From Utricularia gibba (Eukaryota; Streptophyta; Magnoliopsida; Lamiales; Lentibulariaceae): a stretch of 64,000 bases of DNA. Location: assembly GCA_002189035.1 (NCBI GenBank), contig NEEC01000011.1, positions 2,046,001-2,110,000 on the forward strand, written 5' to 3'. Each line of letters starts with the position of its first letter. Position 1 is the stretch's first letter. Of the stretch, positions 31,272 to 47,746 are shown in pieces. The position numbers were made by a program, and so were the translations under genes. Below the pieces are notes generated by a model that saw nothing but the letters and a program-made list of their open reading frames with translations, had not been told where the DNA came from and made no database searches.

Positions 31272-32503
31272 AGGAGGTGAAAGTCTCCCTTCCACGGCTG
31301 ACTTTTTACTGTTATTTGTTACTCTACAAAAGTAAAAAACTGGTATGTGTTTTAAAAAAATTAACCGTTCATGATAGTGAATCTATCCCGCTTTCAAACC
31401 TAATAAAATTCAATATTATAATTTTTTACATTCATATCCGTAATTCGACGAATAAAATGATACTTTTGATAGAATTATATCATATTTGTATCTTATATAA
31501 TTTAAATTGATGATTGTTATATTATGTTTGTATTTATATATGATACATCATTAAAATGATGATATCATCAAAACTAATTAATTTTGGTAACATAATAAAT
31601 TAAATATATAATTTAATAAGTTTAAAAATAAATTATTTTTAAAAATTAAATAACTTATTATATAATTTTAAAATTAAAACTTTTTATATTGATTATAATT
31701 TGAAATACTGTCCACAAACTCCAACCATATATAAACACAAATAATTTATAATACTCTATTAATTAAATTAAGCATGTTTAATGAATCGTGAGCAAGTTGC
31801 AGAAAAAACCAGTGACACAATACACCATCCATCATCCATGAGGTGCATGCAACATGCATCCTATGGCTTCTCTCATTATAATATAATATACGATAACGCG
31901 AAAAAAAAAACCGTTGCAAGACAGCAACTTGACATAGCGCATCATCCGCCGCCGCCCTCCTTGCTGGACGGCGGCCGGACCTCCGGACCGGAGCCTGGCT
32001 TAACCGTGTACGGGGCTTGAGGCACCGCTAGGATCGTTTCAGAAGCTACAAGGAGTTACCAGAATGGATTGGAATAAGAAATCTAAAAAATCATGTAATA
32101 GCTATTAAAATATACAATACCATATCATAAAATGAAATTAACATAATCAAATATATATAAAAAATTACAGATTACAAGTAATACATTGGATATAATCTTT
32201 TTTAATATGATTCATATTTTTTATATACTTAAGTTTTACGCGTGTACTCGTATGATCCATCGGATCCTAAATTTCAACAATAACATGTGATATCTAAATA
32301 CACAATAAACATAAATTACATTAAAAAACATTAGATACAATAATAAAATACTAATGATATACCATATCTTTTATTATTTTATTTTAATTTATCAACTTGA
32401 CATTGTTTGTTCATGCTTATCTTTCCAGTCCATTGTGTATTATTTCGACCCCACGCGCTCGTTCATAGCTTAGCTTCCCTTTGCCCTTCTTTTCATCCAT
32501 CTG
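31272..32503. other. Region between the two CNR copies
   Basis: Outside the JAZ fragment, 31272-31790 and 32060-32410 are AT-rich with no recognised gene. The stretch 31780-31900 is shared with 34320-34440 (it includes the words CATGAGGTGCATGCAACATG) and is common 3' flank of the convergent pair. Unit 2 starts near 32413. Confidence 0.6.
31925..32060 (-). pseudogene. JAZ 3'-end fragment lacking the Jas motif
   Basis: On the minus strand this segment matches the 3' end of the intact JAZ gene at 34464-34730. It has a bit of the last long intron, then the first codons of the Jas exon (VPQ). It then jumps straight to the last exon (PYTVKPGSGPEVRPPSSKEG). The core Jas residues, the Jas intron and the start of the last exon are missing. 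The lost piece is bordered in the intact copy by the short repeat AGCCC, which suggests a microhomology deletion. No upstream JAZ exons are present, so this cannot make a JAZ protein. Confidence 0.85.
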
Positions 32504-38463: not shown

Positions 38464-40366
38464 TTTCCTTTATCCGTCGAACTGTATCACTCTGATGCAT
38501 AGATCGGAAATGGGTGTCGGTTATTTATACTGCAGAAGCGCCGCGAATTGCCCCCGTGGTCGGAACCCGTGTATTCTAGAAGGACGGAGCCGACCCGTTT
38601 TACTTTTGTTTTAATTTTCTTGTTCAAATTATACATCATGACTTTTCAACTGACCAAACGAAGCCGTGGGATCACCGCCGATGCATCCCCGCCGCCACTC
38701 CTCCGGTCACTCTTGTCGTCTTCAATGATGGGGTTGCCGTCTTTTTTAACCTATTTGCCGGGTGTTGGACGTAACATCATAACTGTTCATCCACTGTTGA
38801 ATTATAATGTTATCAACTAAGAAACTTTCTCCGTGTTTATCCCTGGAATATTATTTAAAAAATCACGATCATATAATTGAATCGTGTTAAATTACGAATA
38901 ATTTATAATGCATATATAGGATAAATTTAAATCTACAATATAAAAAAATGAATCGAAATCCAATAGTGGTTTAATATCTATTAAATCATAATTATTTTAT
39001 TTAAAAAATGATGAATTCAATTATAGTTTTCAAGTCAACTCCCCGATTGAATCGAGTGAATCTATATCCGAAAAAAAACGGGTCGAGTGACACATAAAAT
39101 TATCAAATAATTATTATTATTTGTTTTATTTGACTTTGATTACCTTTTTATCATTTTATTTTATTATGTTTATTTCATTTTCTTTAACTTCATGTTGAAA
39201 TTATTTTAAATTTTATTTTTACATTATATCCATATATTGTTTTCTATTAAAAAATCAGCGTATATTTTATATAATAACATTTAAAATATATCTTTTTACT
39301 AACGGTTCACCACAAAAACGGTGCGGGTTATGCATCCGACTTGAAAACGTAGATAAACGGTTCAGTTTTTTTATTATTTAAAACAGTTATTTTTAGGACT
39401 AAAGTGTAGTTAAATGATCATAATTTTGTATCTCAAATGATTAATTTCAATGGAATTAATTCCACAGTGGGTTTAGTGAATTTAATATACTTTGATGACA
39501 TCGCCAATTTTATAACGTACACAGGGGACACGTGCCGTGTCGCAGAAAGAGGCGGACACCTTGAGTTCACCCCTTGTAAAAGTATTGCATACGGGTCGAC
39601 GCTGTAAACCCAACGTGCTACAAACTTGAACTTCAAGGCATTGACATATGGAAAAGTTTTTGATTGAAACATAGCTTCCGTATTTATTTAGATGTGTGAA
39701 ATAAATATTTTATAATTTATAATATTATTTTAAATCTGTTCATTTTTATCCGCTAAGCGCTACGTCATCGTTTAGAATTCTGTAACATCAATTCTAGAAT
39801 TGTTTGAACTTGAAATGCACACACGCGGAAACGATTTTTGACTATTTAGTGGATGTAAATGAAATAAAAATAATTTAATTTATAAGGATTTAAATACTAA
39901 TATTAAAATTGGATATTAAATAGTATTGAGTAGGAACCATAATTTTAAATAAATTTGCATAGATAGAATTAAAAAAATCACGGAATCTCGTATTTATTTA
40001 AATTTTAGAAATAATCATCCTATAATTTATAATATTATTTTTGAATCCATCCATTCTTATTAACTAAACACTACATCAATATTTGCCACAATGACATTTT
40101 ATTTTAAAATTTTTCAAATTTATTAGAATAACACTTGTTCATTTTACAAGTTTTTTTTATCTTTATTGTATCCTACATAAATCTATTTAATGATAATACC
40201 AAGGAAGATAAATATTTAGACAAAGTAATGCATCTCTATACAAATTGCATGATCAAAGTTCAGATTTTTAATATTTCTGAGAGCATATTCTTAATTCCTA
40301 CATTTTTCTTAAGTCACCAATCATTTACATTTAATACCTTTGCACTTGAAACCTAATACATTTACA
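38464..40366. other. Intergenic region left of the palindrome
   Basis: The first 300 bases are the caleosin promoter and leader. From 38820 the DNA is AT-rich. A CACGTG core occurs near 39528. Open frames at 39433-39672 and 40135-40356 have no family match. No gene recognised. Confidence 0.55.
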
Positions 40367-42372
40367 TTCAATTTTCTATGTGAAATTATTTCTTTGCAAT
40401 ACACCTGAGTTTATGATCATGATGTCACTCATTAGTCCATGGTGGGAATTGGGGAATATTTTTTGTATTTTAGGGTTAATTTTTCACACATTATCATGAT
40501 TATTACTATTAATATTATGTTTTAGTATTTTTTCGCAAATGATTATGGAGTGTAGGTATTTGGCTATTATATGATTTTTTATATTCATTTTTCGATTAAT
40601 ATAAGTGAATTTTGCTATATTCAAGTTCTTTAAAATATGTTATTGTATGTTACTTGATACTATTAAATGTATTGAATATAAATTAGAACCAATTTTCTTT
40701 ATTTAAAAAACAAATCAGATTAGATTTTGAGTTTTTTTTCATATTCAATATTTTTTTATAAAAATATATTTAAAAATATTACTTTCAGAATTAATAATTT
40801 CTTCCCATTATAACTTAGCGTTAAGGTTTAGGGTTTAGGGTTTAGAGTGAGTATTAATCTCCAGCACCTGCTTGGAATACTCATGATGGATGTGTGCTGG
40901 GTATTTTTGCACGAAAATCTTGAAAAAAAATGATTTTTTTACACAGCACGAAGAACAAGTTCAGGCTATTGTCTGAAATCAATTCTACACTTGAGTGTTG
41001 AGTGTTTTCAATCAACTTGAACAAGGGCATTCATCGAATCACACCCCGTATCACTATTTTGAAGAGATCCGCCACCCGCACAGAATTTCCATATCCTTCA
41101 TCGCGCTCATGTTGTCGAAGAGGGTGATTGGTTTAATGTTGTCCAATGCTTCCCTTTCTCTGGCTCTTCTTGCCTGAATACTGTCGTCGACAACTTTTAG
41201 CGCCTCTGCGGCTGCGTTGATTTCAGCCTGGAACCGCATTTTCTCTGTTCACAAAGACAATAGAATAAGAATATTATTGTTCGCATTTAAGAAGGAAACA
41301 AGCGCTTCCCTCACCTTCTTGCAGTTCCTTCTGGTATCTCTCTGATTCTTGGCGCCTTTCCGCAGGATGGCTATCCTTGATCTACAGAAAAATCAGTAAA
41401 AATTATAGCCGTATGAATTTCAGACAACAGGGCTGAATCCATGTCTGGTTACCTTATCCTCCACGGACTGATGGGTAGACTTGAAGATGATGTCTTGGAA
41501 TCGTTTCTTCAGAGCAATAGCGCGTTGGGTCTGTTGCCACGCTTTCGTTTGCGGCAGGTCGCCTACTCGACAGGGAATCGGGATCGGGATCGGGATCGGG
41601 ATGAATGATAACAAGAATGAAATCGAAATGAGGAAGAAGGGAACAGAGTGATCATACCCAGAGGGATATCTTTAGCGCCAGAAGGAGTACTCTCCTCTGG
41701 ACTGACTGCACCAGGAGCCTTAGCGCATTGTGAGTCACCGGAAGCGGTGGAACCATTTGACGCCACCGTCGTGACGCCCGACTCATTCGAACGTCCGGGC
41801 GTCCCTTCAATCCCACAGGAATGTATCAGACATCCTGTTCGATACACAATAGGATGGTGATCATCGTTCTTAATCTCACCCTTTTCAATGATCTTTTCCA
41901 GAGCCTGGGGCGCCTTCGCCTTCCCTGAATCCCACATTTTTACGAAGAACTCTTTCAGCTCTCTGGCGTACATGTGAACTCTGTCTCTGGGACGATTGTA
42001 CATGATCCCATTGGCGAAAATGAGACGAACATCCGCAGAAAACTCGTCCGCCGTCATGTACCACCCACTCTCCATACGGCGCTTCACTTTTCCAAGATCC
42101 ATCGAATGCTCCAAACGATCAAAGGGCTTGCAGAAAATGAAAGCCTTGGGATGATTCATCAAATCCTTCAGCACCTTCCCGCAACGCTCCCTTTCTGCAA
42201 CGGCCATCTCCGGCCGCGCCCTCTTTGGCAATCCGCCGCCATTCTCCTGCGCCGCCTTGCGCTTGATCGTCATGATCGCACTTCTTGAATGGCAAGGAAT
42301 GGGAAGAAGCGGGAACTGGGATGAGAATAAGCGGGAACTAATGACGCAGCCATCAGGTGGAGAGCGCCCGCT
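40367..42372. repeat. Left arm of a 2-kb inverted repeat
   Basis: Position p in this arm pairs with 84862 minus p in the right arm (42490-44495). Every checked landmark obeys this rule without an offset: start codon 42273 with 42589, stop codon 41054 with 43808, intron sequence, telomere-like repeat and outer border. So there is no net indel over 2006 bp, and sequences sampled across the arm are identical. The spacer is 117 bp. Confidence 0.95.
41054..42273 (-). CDS. Bromodomain (GTE-like) protein, left palindrome copy
   Basis: Exons 41658..42273, 41453..41562, 41315..41381 and 41054..41244 give 327 aa, mirror image of the right copy. The bromodomain (about residues 25-110) reads FIFCKPFDRLEHSMDLGKVK, ADEFSADVRLIFANGIMYNR and RDRVHMYARELKEFFVKMW, like plant GTE/BET factors that read acetylated histones. 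The MYN stretch keeps the Asn that binds acetyl-lysine. The ZA loop is shorter than usual. The C-terminal exons form a charged coiled coil (RFQAEINAAAEALKVVDDSI). There is no clear ET domain. A TATAAA box lies about 100 bases upstream (42372-42377) in the spacer, which suggests this is the original copy. Confidence 0.88.
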
Positions 42373-42377
42373 TTATA
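42372..42377 (-). promoter_or_regulatory. TATA box of the left bromodomain gene
   Basis: The minus strand reads TATAAA within CTATAAAGC, about 100 bases upstream of the left start codon. All but one base lie in the unique spacer, so the right copy has no equivalent at its matching position. Confidence 0.6.
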
Positions 42378-42489
42378 GCCCGTTGGAGCAGATTTGTTTC
42401 CATAGATAATAATCACCAAGATATGGAATGTTGGACATTCAATCACATTTCAATAAAATAAAATCATTTTTTTGTAATAATCATTCTTG
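42373..42489. other. 117-bp spacer of the palindrome
   Basis: Unique sequence between the two arms. It contains the TATA box for the left gene and, on the plus strand, the AT-rich run AATAAAATAAAATC near 42452-42466, which could serve the right gene. The two start codons are only 315 bases apart, so any promoter here is bidirectional by position. Confidence 0.8.
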
Positions 42490-42588
42490 AGCGGGCGCTC
42501 TCCACCTGATGGCTGCGTCATTAGTTCCCGCTTATTCTCATCCCAGTTCCCGCTTCTTCCCATTCCTTGCCATTCAAGAAGTGCGATC

Positions 42589-43808
42589 ATGACGATCAAG
42601 CGCAAGGCGGCGCAGGAGAATGGCGGCGGATTGCCAAAGAGGGCGCGGCCGGAGATGGCCGTTGCAGAAAGGGAGCGTTGCGGGAAGGTGCTGAAGGATT
42701 TGATGAATCATCCCAAGGCTTTCATTTTCTGCAAGCCCTTTGATCGTTTGGAGCATTCGATGGATCTTGGAAAAGTGAAGCGCCGTATGGAGAGTGGGTG
42801 GTACATGACGGCGGACGAGTTTTCTGCGGATGTTCGTCTCATTTTCGCCAATGGGATCATGTACAATCGTCCCAGAGACAGAGTTCACATGTACGCCAGA
42901 GAGCTGAAAGAGTTCTTCGTAAAAATGTGGGATTCAGGGAAGGCGAAGGCGCCCCAGGCTCTGGAAAAGATCATTGAAAAGGGTGAGATTAAGAACGATG
43001 ATCACCATCCTATTGTGTATCGAACAGGATGTCTGATACATTCCTGTGGGATTGAAGGGACGCCCGGACGTTCGAATGAGTCGGGCGTCACGACGGTGGC
43101 GTCAAATGGTTCCACCGCTTCCGGTGACTCACAATGCGCTAAGGCTCCTGGTGCAGTCAGTCCAGAGGAGAGTACTCCTTCTGGCGCTAAAGATATCCCT
43201 CTGGGTATGATCACTCTGTTCCCTTCTTCCTCATTTCGATTTCATTCTTGTTATCATTCATCCCGATCCCGATCCCGATCCCGATTCCCTGTCGAGTAGG
43301 CGACCTGCCGCAAACGAAAGCGTGGCAACAGACCCAACGCGCTATTGCTCTGAAGAAACGATTCCAAGACATCATCTTCAAGTCTACCCATCAGTCCGTG
43401 GAGGATAAGGTAACCAGACATGGATTCAGCCCTGTTGTCTGAAATTCATACGGCTATAATTTTTACTGATTTTTCTGTAGATCAAGGATAGCCATCCTGC
43501 GGAAAGGCGCCAAGAATCAGAGAGATACCAGAAGGAACTGCAAGAAGGTGAGGGAAGCGCTTGTTTCCTTCTTAAATGCGAACAATAATATTCTTATTCT
43601 ATTGTCTTTGTGAACAGAGAAAATGCGGTTCCAGGCTGAAATCAACGCAGCCGCAGAGGCGCTAAAAGTTGTCGACGACAGTATTCAGGCAAGAAGAGCC
43701 AGAGAAAGGGAAGCATTGGACAACATTAAACCAATCACCCTCTTCGACAACATGAGCGCGATGAAGGATATGGAAATTCTGTGCGGGTGGCGGATCTCTT
43801 CAAAATAG
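42589..43808 (+). CDS. Bromodomain (GTE-like) protein, right palindrome copy
   Basis: Exons 42589..43204, 43300..43409, 43481..43547 and 43618..43808 encode 327 aa, the same as the left copy. I took MTIKRKAAQENGG at 42589 as the start; the longer open frame to 42487 reads through promoter sequence and has no match in the left gene's 5' context. A GATCCC repeat lies at the end of intron 1 (43258-43290). The head-to-head pair may share one promoter region. The duplicate's core promoter differs from the left copy, so expression may differ although the proteins do not. Confidence 0.88.
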
Positions 43809-44013
43809 TGATACGGGGTGTGATTCGATGAATGCCCTTGTTCAAGTTGATTGAAAACACTCAACACTCAAGTGTAGAATTGATTTCAGACAATAGCCTG
43901 AACTTGTTCTTCGTGCTGTGTAAAAAAATCATTTTTTTTCAAGATTTTCGTGCAAAAATACCCAGCACACATCCATCATGAGTATTCCAAGCAGGTGCTG
44001 GAGATTAATACTC

Positions 44014-44037
44014 ACTCTAAACCCTAAACCCTAAACC
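44014..44037. repeat. Short telomere-like repeat, right arm
   Basis: Plus strand reads CTAAACCCTAAACCCTAAACC, three units of the plant telomere repeat (TTTAGGG on the other strand). The mirror copy is at 40825-40848. This is too short for a telomere remnant of any size; telobox-like promoter elements also look like this. Confidence 0.8.
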
Positions 44038-44495
44038 TTAACGCTAAGTTATAATGGGAAGAAATTATTAATTCTGAAAGTAATATTTTTAAATATATTT
44101 TTATAAAAAAATATTGAATATGAAAAAAAACTCAAAATCTAATCTGATTTGTTTTTTAAATAAAGAAAATTGGTTCTAATTTATATTCAATACATTTAAT
44201 AGTATCAAGTAACATACAATAACATATTTTAAAGAACTTGAATATAGCAAAATTCACTTATATTAATCGAAAAATGAATATAAAAAATCATATAATAGCC
44301 AAATACCTACACTCCATAATCATTTGCGAAAAAATACTAAAACATAATATTAATAGTAATAATCATGATAATGTGTGAAAAATTAACCCTAAAATACAAA
44401 AAATATTCCCCAATTCCCACCATGGACTAATGAGTGACATCATGATCATAAACTCAGGTGTATTGCAAAGAAATAATTTCACATAGAAAATTGAA

Positions 44496-45619
44496 ATTGA
44501 AATTGAAATATTAAAATGTATAAAAAATTTATAAATTACTAGTAATTAGTTAAATTGTTATCTTTATTAATATAATCTATATTTGTTATATATATGGTTT
44601 TCATGTGTGATTATTTGATCTATTGAATTCTTAATTTTAACAAGTTTTTGATGTTTGAGACAATGTTCTCCCATTCTAAGAATAAGCATATTCTTGATAC
44701 CCAATGCCATGGGAAGATTTCCGAGCTCACCACAAATCCATTCCCATCATCAGATCCAGCAGCCACATGACATGCATCCACTGCCTTCAACCAAACATTT
44801 CGTAAAGGTCTTCATTCTCCATTTCTTGTCACAATCACTTTTGTTTTTCTTTCTTTTTCTTTTTTCATTCTTGACAACATGCGAAAACCACGAAAAAATC
44901 TTGATTTCTTGCAAGAATCCCACCACATAGTCAAGTTCGTCAAGTAACTGTTAACAAGTCGCTCCATATGATTGGTTGAAGGCAGCAGCCCTTCTAGAAC
45001 ACCAGCAACCTGTCCGCATCTCAGTTTTACAGTCAGCTCGCGCACAGGGAGCAACTCATCATTTCGGGGCAAATAGTTTGTGTCGTTATTTCGTAATTTT
45101 TAATTTATTGACGAGAGGAAACTGCCAATAAAAAGGAAGGTTCGTTGGATGTAACCCATCAGAAGCAATGGTCACGTTCCTACATGCCAAATACATTGTC
45201 ACTAACGTGTAATGTGTCTGATCATTACATGGTGCCAACTTGTTGATACATATCTTAGCCACCGGCCTAAAATACTGGCCAAATGATTTTGTGGGCCGAA
45301 CCGAACCGGCGGTCCACAACGTTGTCACGAGAACCATGCAGCAACTATTGGTTTAAAAAAAAAAAGATATAAACGGGAGTGGTCCCCACTTAACATTTAA
45401 TAAAATTAAAATAATAATATAAATTTAATATTCTTATTCTATTTTTTTTATAAACGATTGATGCGGTAACTAGTTTCAAAACTAATACCTAAATCCCACA
45501 TACTGCGGATTAAATTGTGACATTCCAAACGGACACGAAGTTTGGGATTGGATGGATAGTAACGGGAATTTGGAGATTTCCAGCAATGGAGTTGGAGGAG
45601 AATTTTTTCAGTGCAGGGT
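44496..45619. other. Intergenic region right of the palindrome
   Basis: Positions 44496-44640 are AT-rich. Open frames at 44655-44930 (plus) and 44812-45072 (minus) have no family match. The part near 45619 is the 3' flank of the calmodulin-like gene. No gene recognised. Confidence 0.5.
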
Positions 45620-46183
45620 TTAGAACTTGCGGAGACATGGACCGTTCAGCATCATCGCCTTGAACTCACGGAAGCAAATCGTGCCATTTCCATCGGCGTC
45701 CACACCGCTAATCATCTTCCGGCAGTCATCCAGAGTGCATTCCTCCCCCAAGCTCTTCAGAACGTTGAACAATTCCTCCGCGGAAATGGATCCGTTCTTA
45801 TCCAAATCGAATACCTCAAACGCGTTCCGCAGCGTCTCGTCGTTATCCGAATCATCCGCGGTGTTGAGCGCGATGAATTCGCGCAGATCGATGAATCCGT
45901 CGCCGTCGGAATCCACTTCCTGGATCATCAGCCTTAGTTCCTCCTCTGTCGCCAAATGCCCTAGGCTACTCATTATCTTACCGAGCTCCGCCGCGGAGAT
46001 CTTTCCGTCGCCGTTGGCGTCGAATTTCTTGAATACCTCAACCAATTCCTCCTCTGCCATGCGGTACCTCCCGTTCGCCGAGGAAGCACGTTGCGAATCC
46101 GCCGGAACTTGATTTTCAGATCCGCCGGGGACGGCACTCTGCTTCTTATTCTTCTTCCGCTTGAAGAAGGCGTTAAACCCCAT
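45620..46183 (-). CDS. Calmodulin-like protein with four EF-hands
   Basis: Calcium sensor, 187 aa, no intron. Four canonical EF loops are visible: DANGDGKISAAE, DSDGDGFIDLRE, DLDKNGSISAEE and DADGNGTICFRE, at about residues 59, 95, 133 and 169. Each has acidic residues at positions 1, 3 and 12. The first 45 residues are a basic, Ser/Gln-rich extension (MGFNAFFKRKKNKKQS), which could aid membrane contact. I chose the ATG at 46183; the frame stays open to 46297 but upstream residues do not resemble the family. The CML subgroup (CML25/26/27-like) is a guess. Intronless structure is common in CML genes. Confidence 0.93.
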   Translation of the reverse strand: MGFNAFFKRKKNKKQSAVPGGSENQVPADSQRASSANGRYRMAEEELVEVFKKFDANGDGKISAAELGKIMSSLGHLATEEELRLMIQEVDSDGDGFIDLREFIALNTADDSDNDETLRNAFEVFDLDKNGSISAEELFNVLKSLGEECTLDDCRKMISGVDADGNGTICFREFKAMMLNGPCLRKF

Positions 46184-47746
46184 GGATTGGAGAGCCAAAC
46201 CAAAATGTTCCAATTCTTTCCTGAATGTGAACCCCAGACGGAAGGTTTCGGAATTCTTGCTGAGATTTAGACGTTCCAATTCACGGAAATTTTGCAAGAC
46301 TCAGAAATTCCAAGTCTTCGATAATACCCTGATAATACGTTAATAATTTATTTAAAAAAGAATATTTTATTCATTACAATAATACAACTATACAACAAAT
46401 ATTTTATCAATAATAATAAAAAAATGTAAAAATACATCCGTTTGGGTTGAAAATCCGCTCCCCAATTAGTGCTGCCTAAATTGCGTAATTACGGTAGGTT
46501 AGTAATTAATAATCATTAATTACTTAATATGTCCTTGTAATTATGGTGTTCAAATTTAAACGTAATAATGGCGTCGTTATAGCATACTTAATACTAACAA
46601 CTACCATAATTAAACGTTCAGTTTCAATTTGGATACTCTCTTATTTTACATTTTATTTTCAATTTATCAACCCAAATCTCGTTTAATCATTTTAAAAATT
46701 AGTCAGTTATCGTTTATTTCTCATATACTAGATAAAAAAAATTAATACTTAAAATGATAGTAGTATTAAAATTAAGAATTAAATGAATCTAACGAATATA
46801 TATTTGTGAATTTTAAATAAATAAAAATATATATTGCATTTAAAAAGATTACATTTAATTAATCGTTAATGATTTACAATATATTATATATTTCATTTTA
46901 ATTTTATAATATGAAATTGTTTGTTTTAATAGTTATCTCAAAGATAAATTAGTGTTGGATCTGATCAATCATAAAAATATATTTTTTACGACTTTAATTT
47001 TTATTGTTTATCTAATATATTTTCTTGTTTTTTTAATCGAAATTCAAATTAATATAAAATACATTTTAATTATTCAAATTATGTTTTAATGCAAATGTTA
47101 TAATACTATATTAAAATTAAGAATCTTATGAATTGGATGAGCACATAAATCTTAAGTATATAATAAAAGCATATGACATTTGAAAAGATTAACGTTAATC
47201 GATTACTATTGATTTACAATTTAATATATAATTGATCATTTCACTTTTATTTTCTAAAAGCCTAGTTTTGAATTACTATTAGTGGGGGAGGTAGTTTTGC
47301 AACAAATGATATCACTACAGAAAAACAGTTGGTATGTATTTTAAACCTTCAAGAATTATTATTATTATTGATATGATGTGATTAAAAAATTGAATCTAAA
47401 AGTAGTGATGACACACTACTTGCCAGAAACCCTCGTCACGTCACTCTTTGCAACTATGTCAATATTCGTTTCCAATTGCAATTTGGGTACCTGTGTCAAC
47501 AGGGTAATTGAATGTTGACTTGAACTATAATCATACCATTAAAATCATATTATAAAAATTCACAATTAAATCCAATCAGACATTTGGGGACATTAAGGAT
47601 GATTAGTTAATCTTTTTAGGATAATACATTTTATTTGTTTCCATTACTGCAGCTCGTTCCTGATTTCCCATTGGCGTCATACAAAGGCGACCAGGCCTCG
47701 ATCGGAATTGCAGTTTTGGAGAGAAGACGATGAACTTGCCGGAGCT
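46184..47746. other. Intergenic region, AT-rich
   Basis: From 46330 to 47400 the DNA is strongly AT-rich with no gene. 47400-47630 is mixed. The last 100 bases are probably 3' UTR of the DUF7734 gene. Confidence 0.55.

Follow-up and report, generated by a model that had tools for sequence, protein, structure and literature searches.

Does a perfect palindrome in a plant nuclear assembly belong to the genome or to the way it was assembled, and if it is real, which half came first and could it silence the gene it carries? The question arises at C255:2086367-2090495 in Utricularia gibba, inside the window analysed here (C255:2046001-2110000, the whole stretch of 64,000 nt; positions below are those of the window unless a contig is named). 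Among spontaneous triggers of gene silencing in plants, inverted gene repeats of natural origin are the best known.

The palindrome and the gene in its arms

The initial annotation described two apparently identical 2006-bp arms in which position p pairs with 84862 minus p, and the alignment of the arms that it called for bore this out at every position: pairing held at 2006 of 2006 sites from 40367 to 42372, with 0 mismatches and 0 indels, and dropped to background directly beyond the arms and within the 117-bp centre. A separate repeat search returned the same structure (40367-42372 and 42490-44495, 2006 nt, 100% complementary, 117 nt between). Because it found only one other inverted repeat of at least 60 nt in the window (67 nt, 76%), a chance origin can be ruled out. 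A search for a third copy of the arm in the assembly (100.1 Mb, 516 contigs) found none, and the palindrome occupies a single locus. Its parts, with the evidence for each in brackets where given, are as follows.

40367..42372, minus strand: left arm, putative source copy, gene on the minus strand (exact pairing, repeat search, collinearity with paralogs)
42373..42489, minus strand: centre, 117 bp, upstream and promoter DNA of the left gene (aligned with upstream DNA of the C3 paralog)
42490..44495, plus strand: right arm, putative derived copy, its gene lacking the core promoter (exact pairing, repeat search, promoter comparison)
41054..42273, minus strand: left gene, 327 aa, bromodomain; exons 42273-41658, 41562-41453, 41381-41315 and 41244-41054
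42589..43808, plus strand: right gene, identical 327 aa; exons 42589-43204, 43300-43409, 43481-43547 and 43618-43808
C3:2353491-2354727: unlinked C3 paralog, 75% identical to the window gene

The head-to-head bromodomain gene pair proposed at the outset was likewise recovered, each arm holding a four-exon gene with consensus splice sites, in divergent orientation, and both reading frames being intact and identical. A Pfam scan of the 327 aa gave a bromodomain (PF00439, 46.4 bits) as the sole match and did not detect a NET (extra-terminal) domain. The nearest PDB structures by sequence are BRD4 and BRD2. The bromodomain is short, with residues 30-111 aligning to 96 residues of BRD2 (5dfb), consistent with a shortened ZA region, and the acetyl-lysine site retains its Tyr-Asn motif. 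The product thus resembles plant GTE/BET proteins in its BET-type bromodomain but differs in its length of only 327 aa, in the undetected NET domain and in the ZA region; the earlier label of chromatin reader keeps the support of the bromodomain and its Tyr-Asn motif and is weakened by the latter two features.

Three further relatives were found in the assembly, the C3 paralog (75% DNA identity) and two on C255 (84-85%). Both C255 relatives carry in-frame stops, frameshifts and a replaced last exon, and look like pseudogenes. Against the C3 paralog, the window gene has a dN/dS of 0.41 over its whole length and of 0.32 within the bromodomain, and the duplicated gene has therefore been under constraint. 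Since these paralogs have diverged by 15-25% from the window gene, compared with 0 differences between the arms, the arms are far younger than the gene family.

The paralogous regions have some features of their own. The last exon of the C3 paralog holds an extra intron-like insert of ~70 bp (GT...AG), exactly absent from window positions 43618-43808. The pseudogenised relatives lie in two arrays, C255:1163826-1168323 and C255:1340523-1346634, that are mutually 85-93% identical over several kb and are best read as an older segmental duplication of the same bromodomain gene family. Outside the palindrome, 44694-44728 gives a 36-bp match to DNA beside the C3 paralog, a match that the genome-wide search did not report.

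Polarity and junctions

Comparison of the two halves with these paralogs shows that the arms are not equivalent, a point absent from the initial annotation. It rests on the following features at the inner and outer borders.

42372..42377, minus strand: TATA box of the left gene, TATAAA, lying 104 bp ahead of its ATG; the arm end cuts through TATAAA
40097..40357, plus strand: left flank common to the 3' flanks of the C255 paralogs (collinear alignment)
40358..40870, plus strand: segment absent from the paralogs, which have ~100 bp of other DNA there; the outer palindrome border lies 9 bp inside it
40367..40402, minus strand: tip of a dispersed repeat, closing the left arm on its outer side (24.4 bits by a 26-bp position matrix)
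44460..44653, plus strand: AT-rich dispersed repeat of the same kind, MITE/SINE-like, class provisional (nhmmer 118.6 bits); spans the right border, 44495/44496
44490..44507, plus strand: ATTGAA three times in tandem, the right arm stopping exactly where the first unit ends

The motif GGAAACAAATCTGCTCCAACGGGCTATAAAGCGGG found upstream of the left gene is recognisable in all three paralog promoters; from the arm edge onward, the DNA ahead of the right gene is unrelated to them. Within the centre, 42373-42402 and ~42411-42485 are collinear with the upstream DNA of the C3 paralog in the left-gene orientation only, scoring 40 and 58 where shuffled sequence reached at most 22 and 37; the reverse orientation gave 24 against the 58, and the alignment reaches 42485. 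A right-facing TATA box was sought in the centre and not found, the only TATA box there facing left. Because of the promoter motif, the centre alignment and the shared left flank, we read the left gene and centre as the old, ancestral unit and the right arm as a derived copy whose inner end falls within the TATA box. The comparison also shows a right copy lacking a native core promoter, which would then be expressed weakly, if at all. A short telomere-like tract (GGTTTAGGGTTTAGGGTTTAG) lies at ~40824-40848, and at its mirror position, within the segment missing from the paralogs.

This polarity bears on one alternative, that the locus is an older head-to-head gene pair held identical through arm-to-arm gene conversion. 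Conversion is favoured by the short centre and the perfect arms, and the truncation of the repeat on the left side alone can be read as a conversion boundary; a right copy without any promoter of its own is, however, unlike a gene that was once independent, and we consider such a history distinctly unlikely. The right gene as an old independent partner was also evaluated and is disfavoured, since the centre matches paralog promoters in the left-gene orientation only.

At the outer borders, the dispersed repeat (at least ~40 genome matches among the matches listed) is continuous over the right border and breaks off on the left at 40367. Against the repeat start, the last 26 bp at the outer end of the arm reach 24.4 bits, and the next sites in the window score 18.0 and 12.6 once the mirror and known copies are set aside. 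Three readings of these borders can be offered. A homology-guided template switch between the truncated repeat on the left and the full repeat on the right would fit, and so would an arm that was once longer, with the remainder of the repeat subsequently lost from the left copy; a flip of the spacer by crossover between the arms, which would reverse the polarity, is a further possibility. The ATTGAA at the end of the right arm is possibly a junction microhomology. Four more copies of the right-border repeat were found in the window, at 32096-32286, 32412-32276, 46968-46760 and 47257-47024.

Origin of the palindrome

We consider it likely that the palindrome is a recent segmental inverted duplication in the plant nuclear genome and not an assembly fold-back. 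Under this model, a single leftward-transcribed bromodomain gene and its 3' flank would have been copied and the copy pasted in mirror image just upstream of the source gene, most likely through replication template switching (the mechanism we infer) or break-induced repair. The outer junction would lie at the dispersed-repeat tip with its ATTGAA microhomology; only the left copy would have kept the ancestral promoter because the TATA box was cut at the inner junction. Of the origins first offered, a very recent inverted duplication is thus the one that the exact arms and the paralog-matched centre and left flank support, now with a direction, from left to right. Ongoing gene conversion, also among those origins, is not needed to account for the arms, though it may have acted on them. 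If substitutions accrue at 7e-9 per site per generation, an assumed rate like that of Arabidopsis, 0 differences in 2006 bp would give the arms a 95% upper age bound of ~107,000 generations, unless gene conversion or consensus polishing erased differences: the former could make an older palindrome seem new, and the latter can mask true differences between arms. The repeat that is continuous on the right and truncated on the left makes a counterpoint, as the right outer junction could be the ancestral one, with a deletion on the left or a later spacer flip; the flip, through crossover between the arms, would swap source and derived copy.

The junctions resemble those of ODIRA and related replication-based inverted amplification (PMC4689423) in that short homologies mark the inverted junctions and the distal sequence is retained; those events differ in producing a triplication, and the palindrome here is an interstitial duplication.

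Perfect identity across 2 kb, and the failure to find an allelic or second copy in the assembly, are what an assembly or library artefact would also leave, whether from a chimeric molecule folded back on itself or from two haplotypes wrongly joined. The structure of the locus argues otherwise. From a fold-back read one expects a single junction with symmetric flanks, but here the flanks are unrelated and two junctions are needed; a SMRTbell adapter was sought and matched at best 25 of 45 bases, at a site outside the centre; the centre is real promoter DNA that aligns over its full length to a paralog; and a single continuous dispersed repeat bridges the right border. The published long-read assembly of U. 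gibba (HGAP, contig N50 3.4 Mb) was built at 88x from subreads with a mean of 10.4 kb, well above the 4.1 kb of the palindrome (PMC5793159). The assembly error allowed by the initial annotation can be kept as a lesser possibility, less likely than was allowed there in view of the paralog-aligned centre and the repeat-bridged right border, and we give it a small chance.

Long inverted repeats that end in the tip of a dispersed repeat also bring to mind a transposable element with 2-kb terminal inverted repeats. A target-site duplication was not found, the flanking 9-mers being ACATTTACA on the left and ATTGAAATT on the right, no other copy exists in the genome, and the left copy shares its surroundings with the paralogs. 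With the target-site duplication absent, a single locus and an ancestral left context, this candidate was rejected, and its probability is close to negligible.

Possible hairpin RNA and the small RNA pathways of the host

A separate proposal, compatible with the recent duplication, is that the locus is an active source of hairpin RNA like PAI1-PAI4 or VIM4-VIM2. Transcripts crossing the centre would fold into a 2-kb duplex and be processed to siRNAs of 21-22 nt, which would act in trans to silence both the pair and its paralog. Such a target would be available, as 24 of the 964 exonic 21-mers of the arms match the C3 paralog region exactly and 205 nearly so (at most 2 mismatches). The genome holds three Dicer loci with a dimerisation domain besides one without. 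Since the two genes diverge, however, a hairpin needs transcription through the centre. Both are transcribed away from it, and their divergence, together with a TATA box that faces only left and the lack of a right-facing one in the centre, argues against read-through by default. For silencing to occur, transcripts would have to begin away from the divergent promoters, within an arm or further out, and run through the centre. Self-silencing is plausible on this analysis; an active hairpin locus we regard as possible, if unlikely.

PAI1-PAI4 of Arabidopsis, a natural inverted gene duplication to which the palindrome is alike, acts in trans on unlinked relatives, and small RNAs are a feature of PAI. 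The PAI genes stand tail-to-tail, so that a genic transcript can run from copy to copy (PMC13213937), whereas the window genes stand head-to-head. The closer layout, a good precedent absent from the initial annotation, is that of VIM4-VIM2 in Arabidopsis Cvi-0, for which 21-nt siRNAs, silencing in trans and methylation at the locus have been demonstrated (PMC13213937). There too, head-to-head inverted genes have near-identical arms that include the first intron, the centre is very short and non-palindromic (50 bp, compared with 117 bp here), and the gene product is linked to chromatin. The differences are that a deletion joined two inverted paralogs at VIM4-VIM2, in contrast to a promoterless new duplicate here, and that VIM4-VIM2 has start sites lying across its centre, with siRNAs and methylation demonstrated (PMC13213937). 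Natural inverted gene repeats of the PAI and VIM type being already known, the window palindrome appears by its arm layout to be a further case.

The small RNA background of the host may shape the outcome. U. gibba reportedly carries DCL1-4, its DCL3 being without the helicase and the dimerisation domain, and has few small RNAs of 24 nt (PMC8333044). Our genome search found paired ribonuclease III domains at four loci (C255, C244, C3 and C213) and detected the Dicer dimerisation domain at three of the four, the exception being C213, where a missed match is possible in such a search. The Dicer-like locus at C213:2761967-2762970, with paired ribonuclease III domains and no detectable dimerisation domain, matches the published truncated DCL3. 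Hairpin transgenes in plants reportedly become methylated and self-silencing (PMC9263138), and this may be weaker here given the truncated DCL3. What gives the locus its interest is that the palindrome is exact and apparently newly formed, with readable junctions at a cut TATA box and at a dispersed-repeat tip, in a host with an impaired 24-nt pathway, and it would offer a clean natural setting in which to ask if 21-22-nt RNAs suffice to silence a new palindrome. That a fresh palindrome combined with a truncated DCL3 leads 21-22-nt siRNAs to silence the gene and its unlinked paralog post-transcriptionally, without methylation of the Arabidopsis type, we would call a long shot.

To the right of the palindrome, a gene for an EF-hand (calmodulin-like) protein lies at 45620-46297 on the minus strand and points at it; read-through from this gene would cross both arms.
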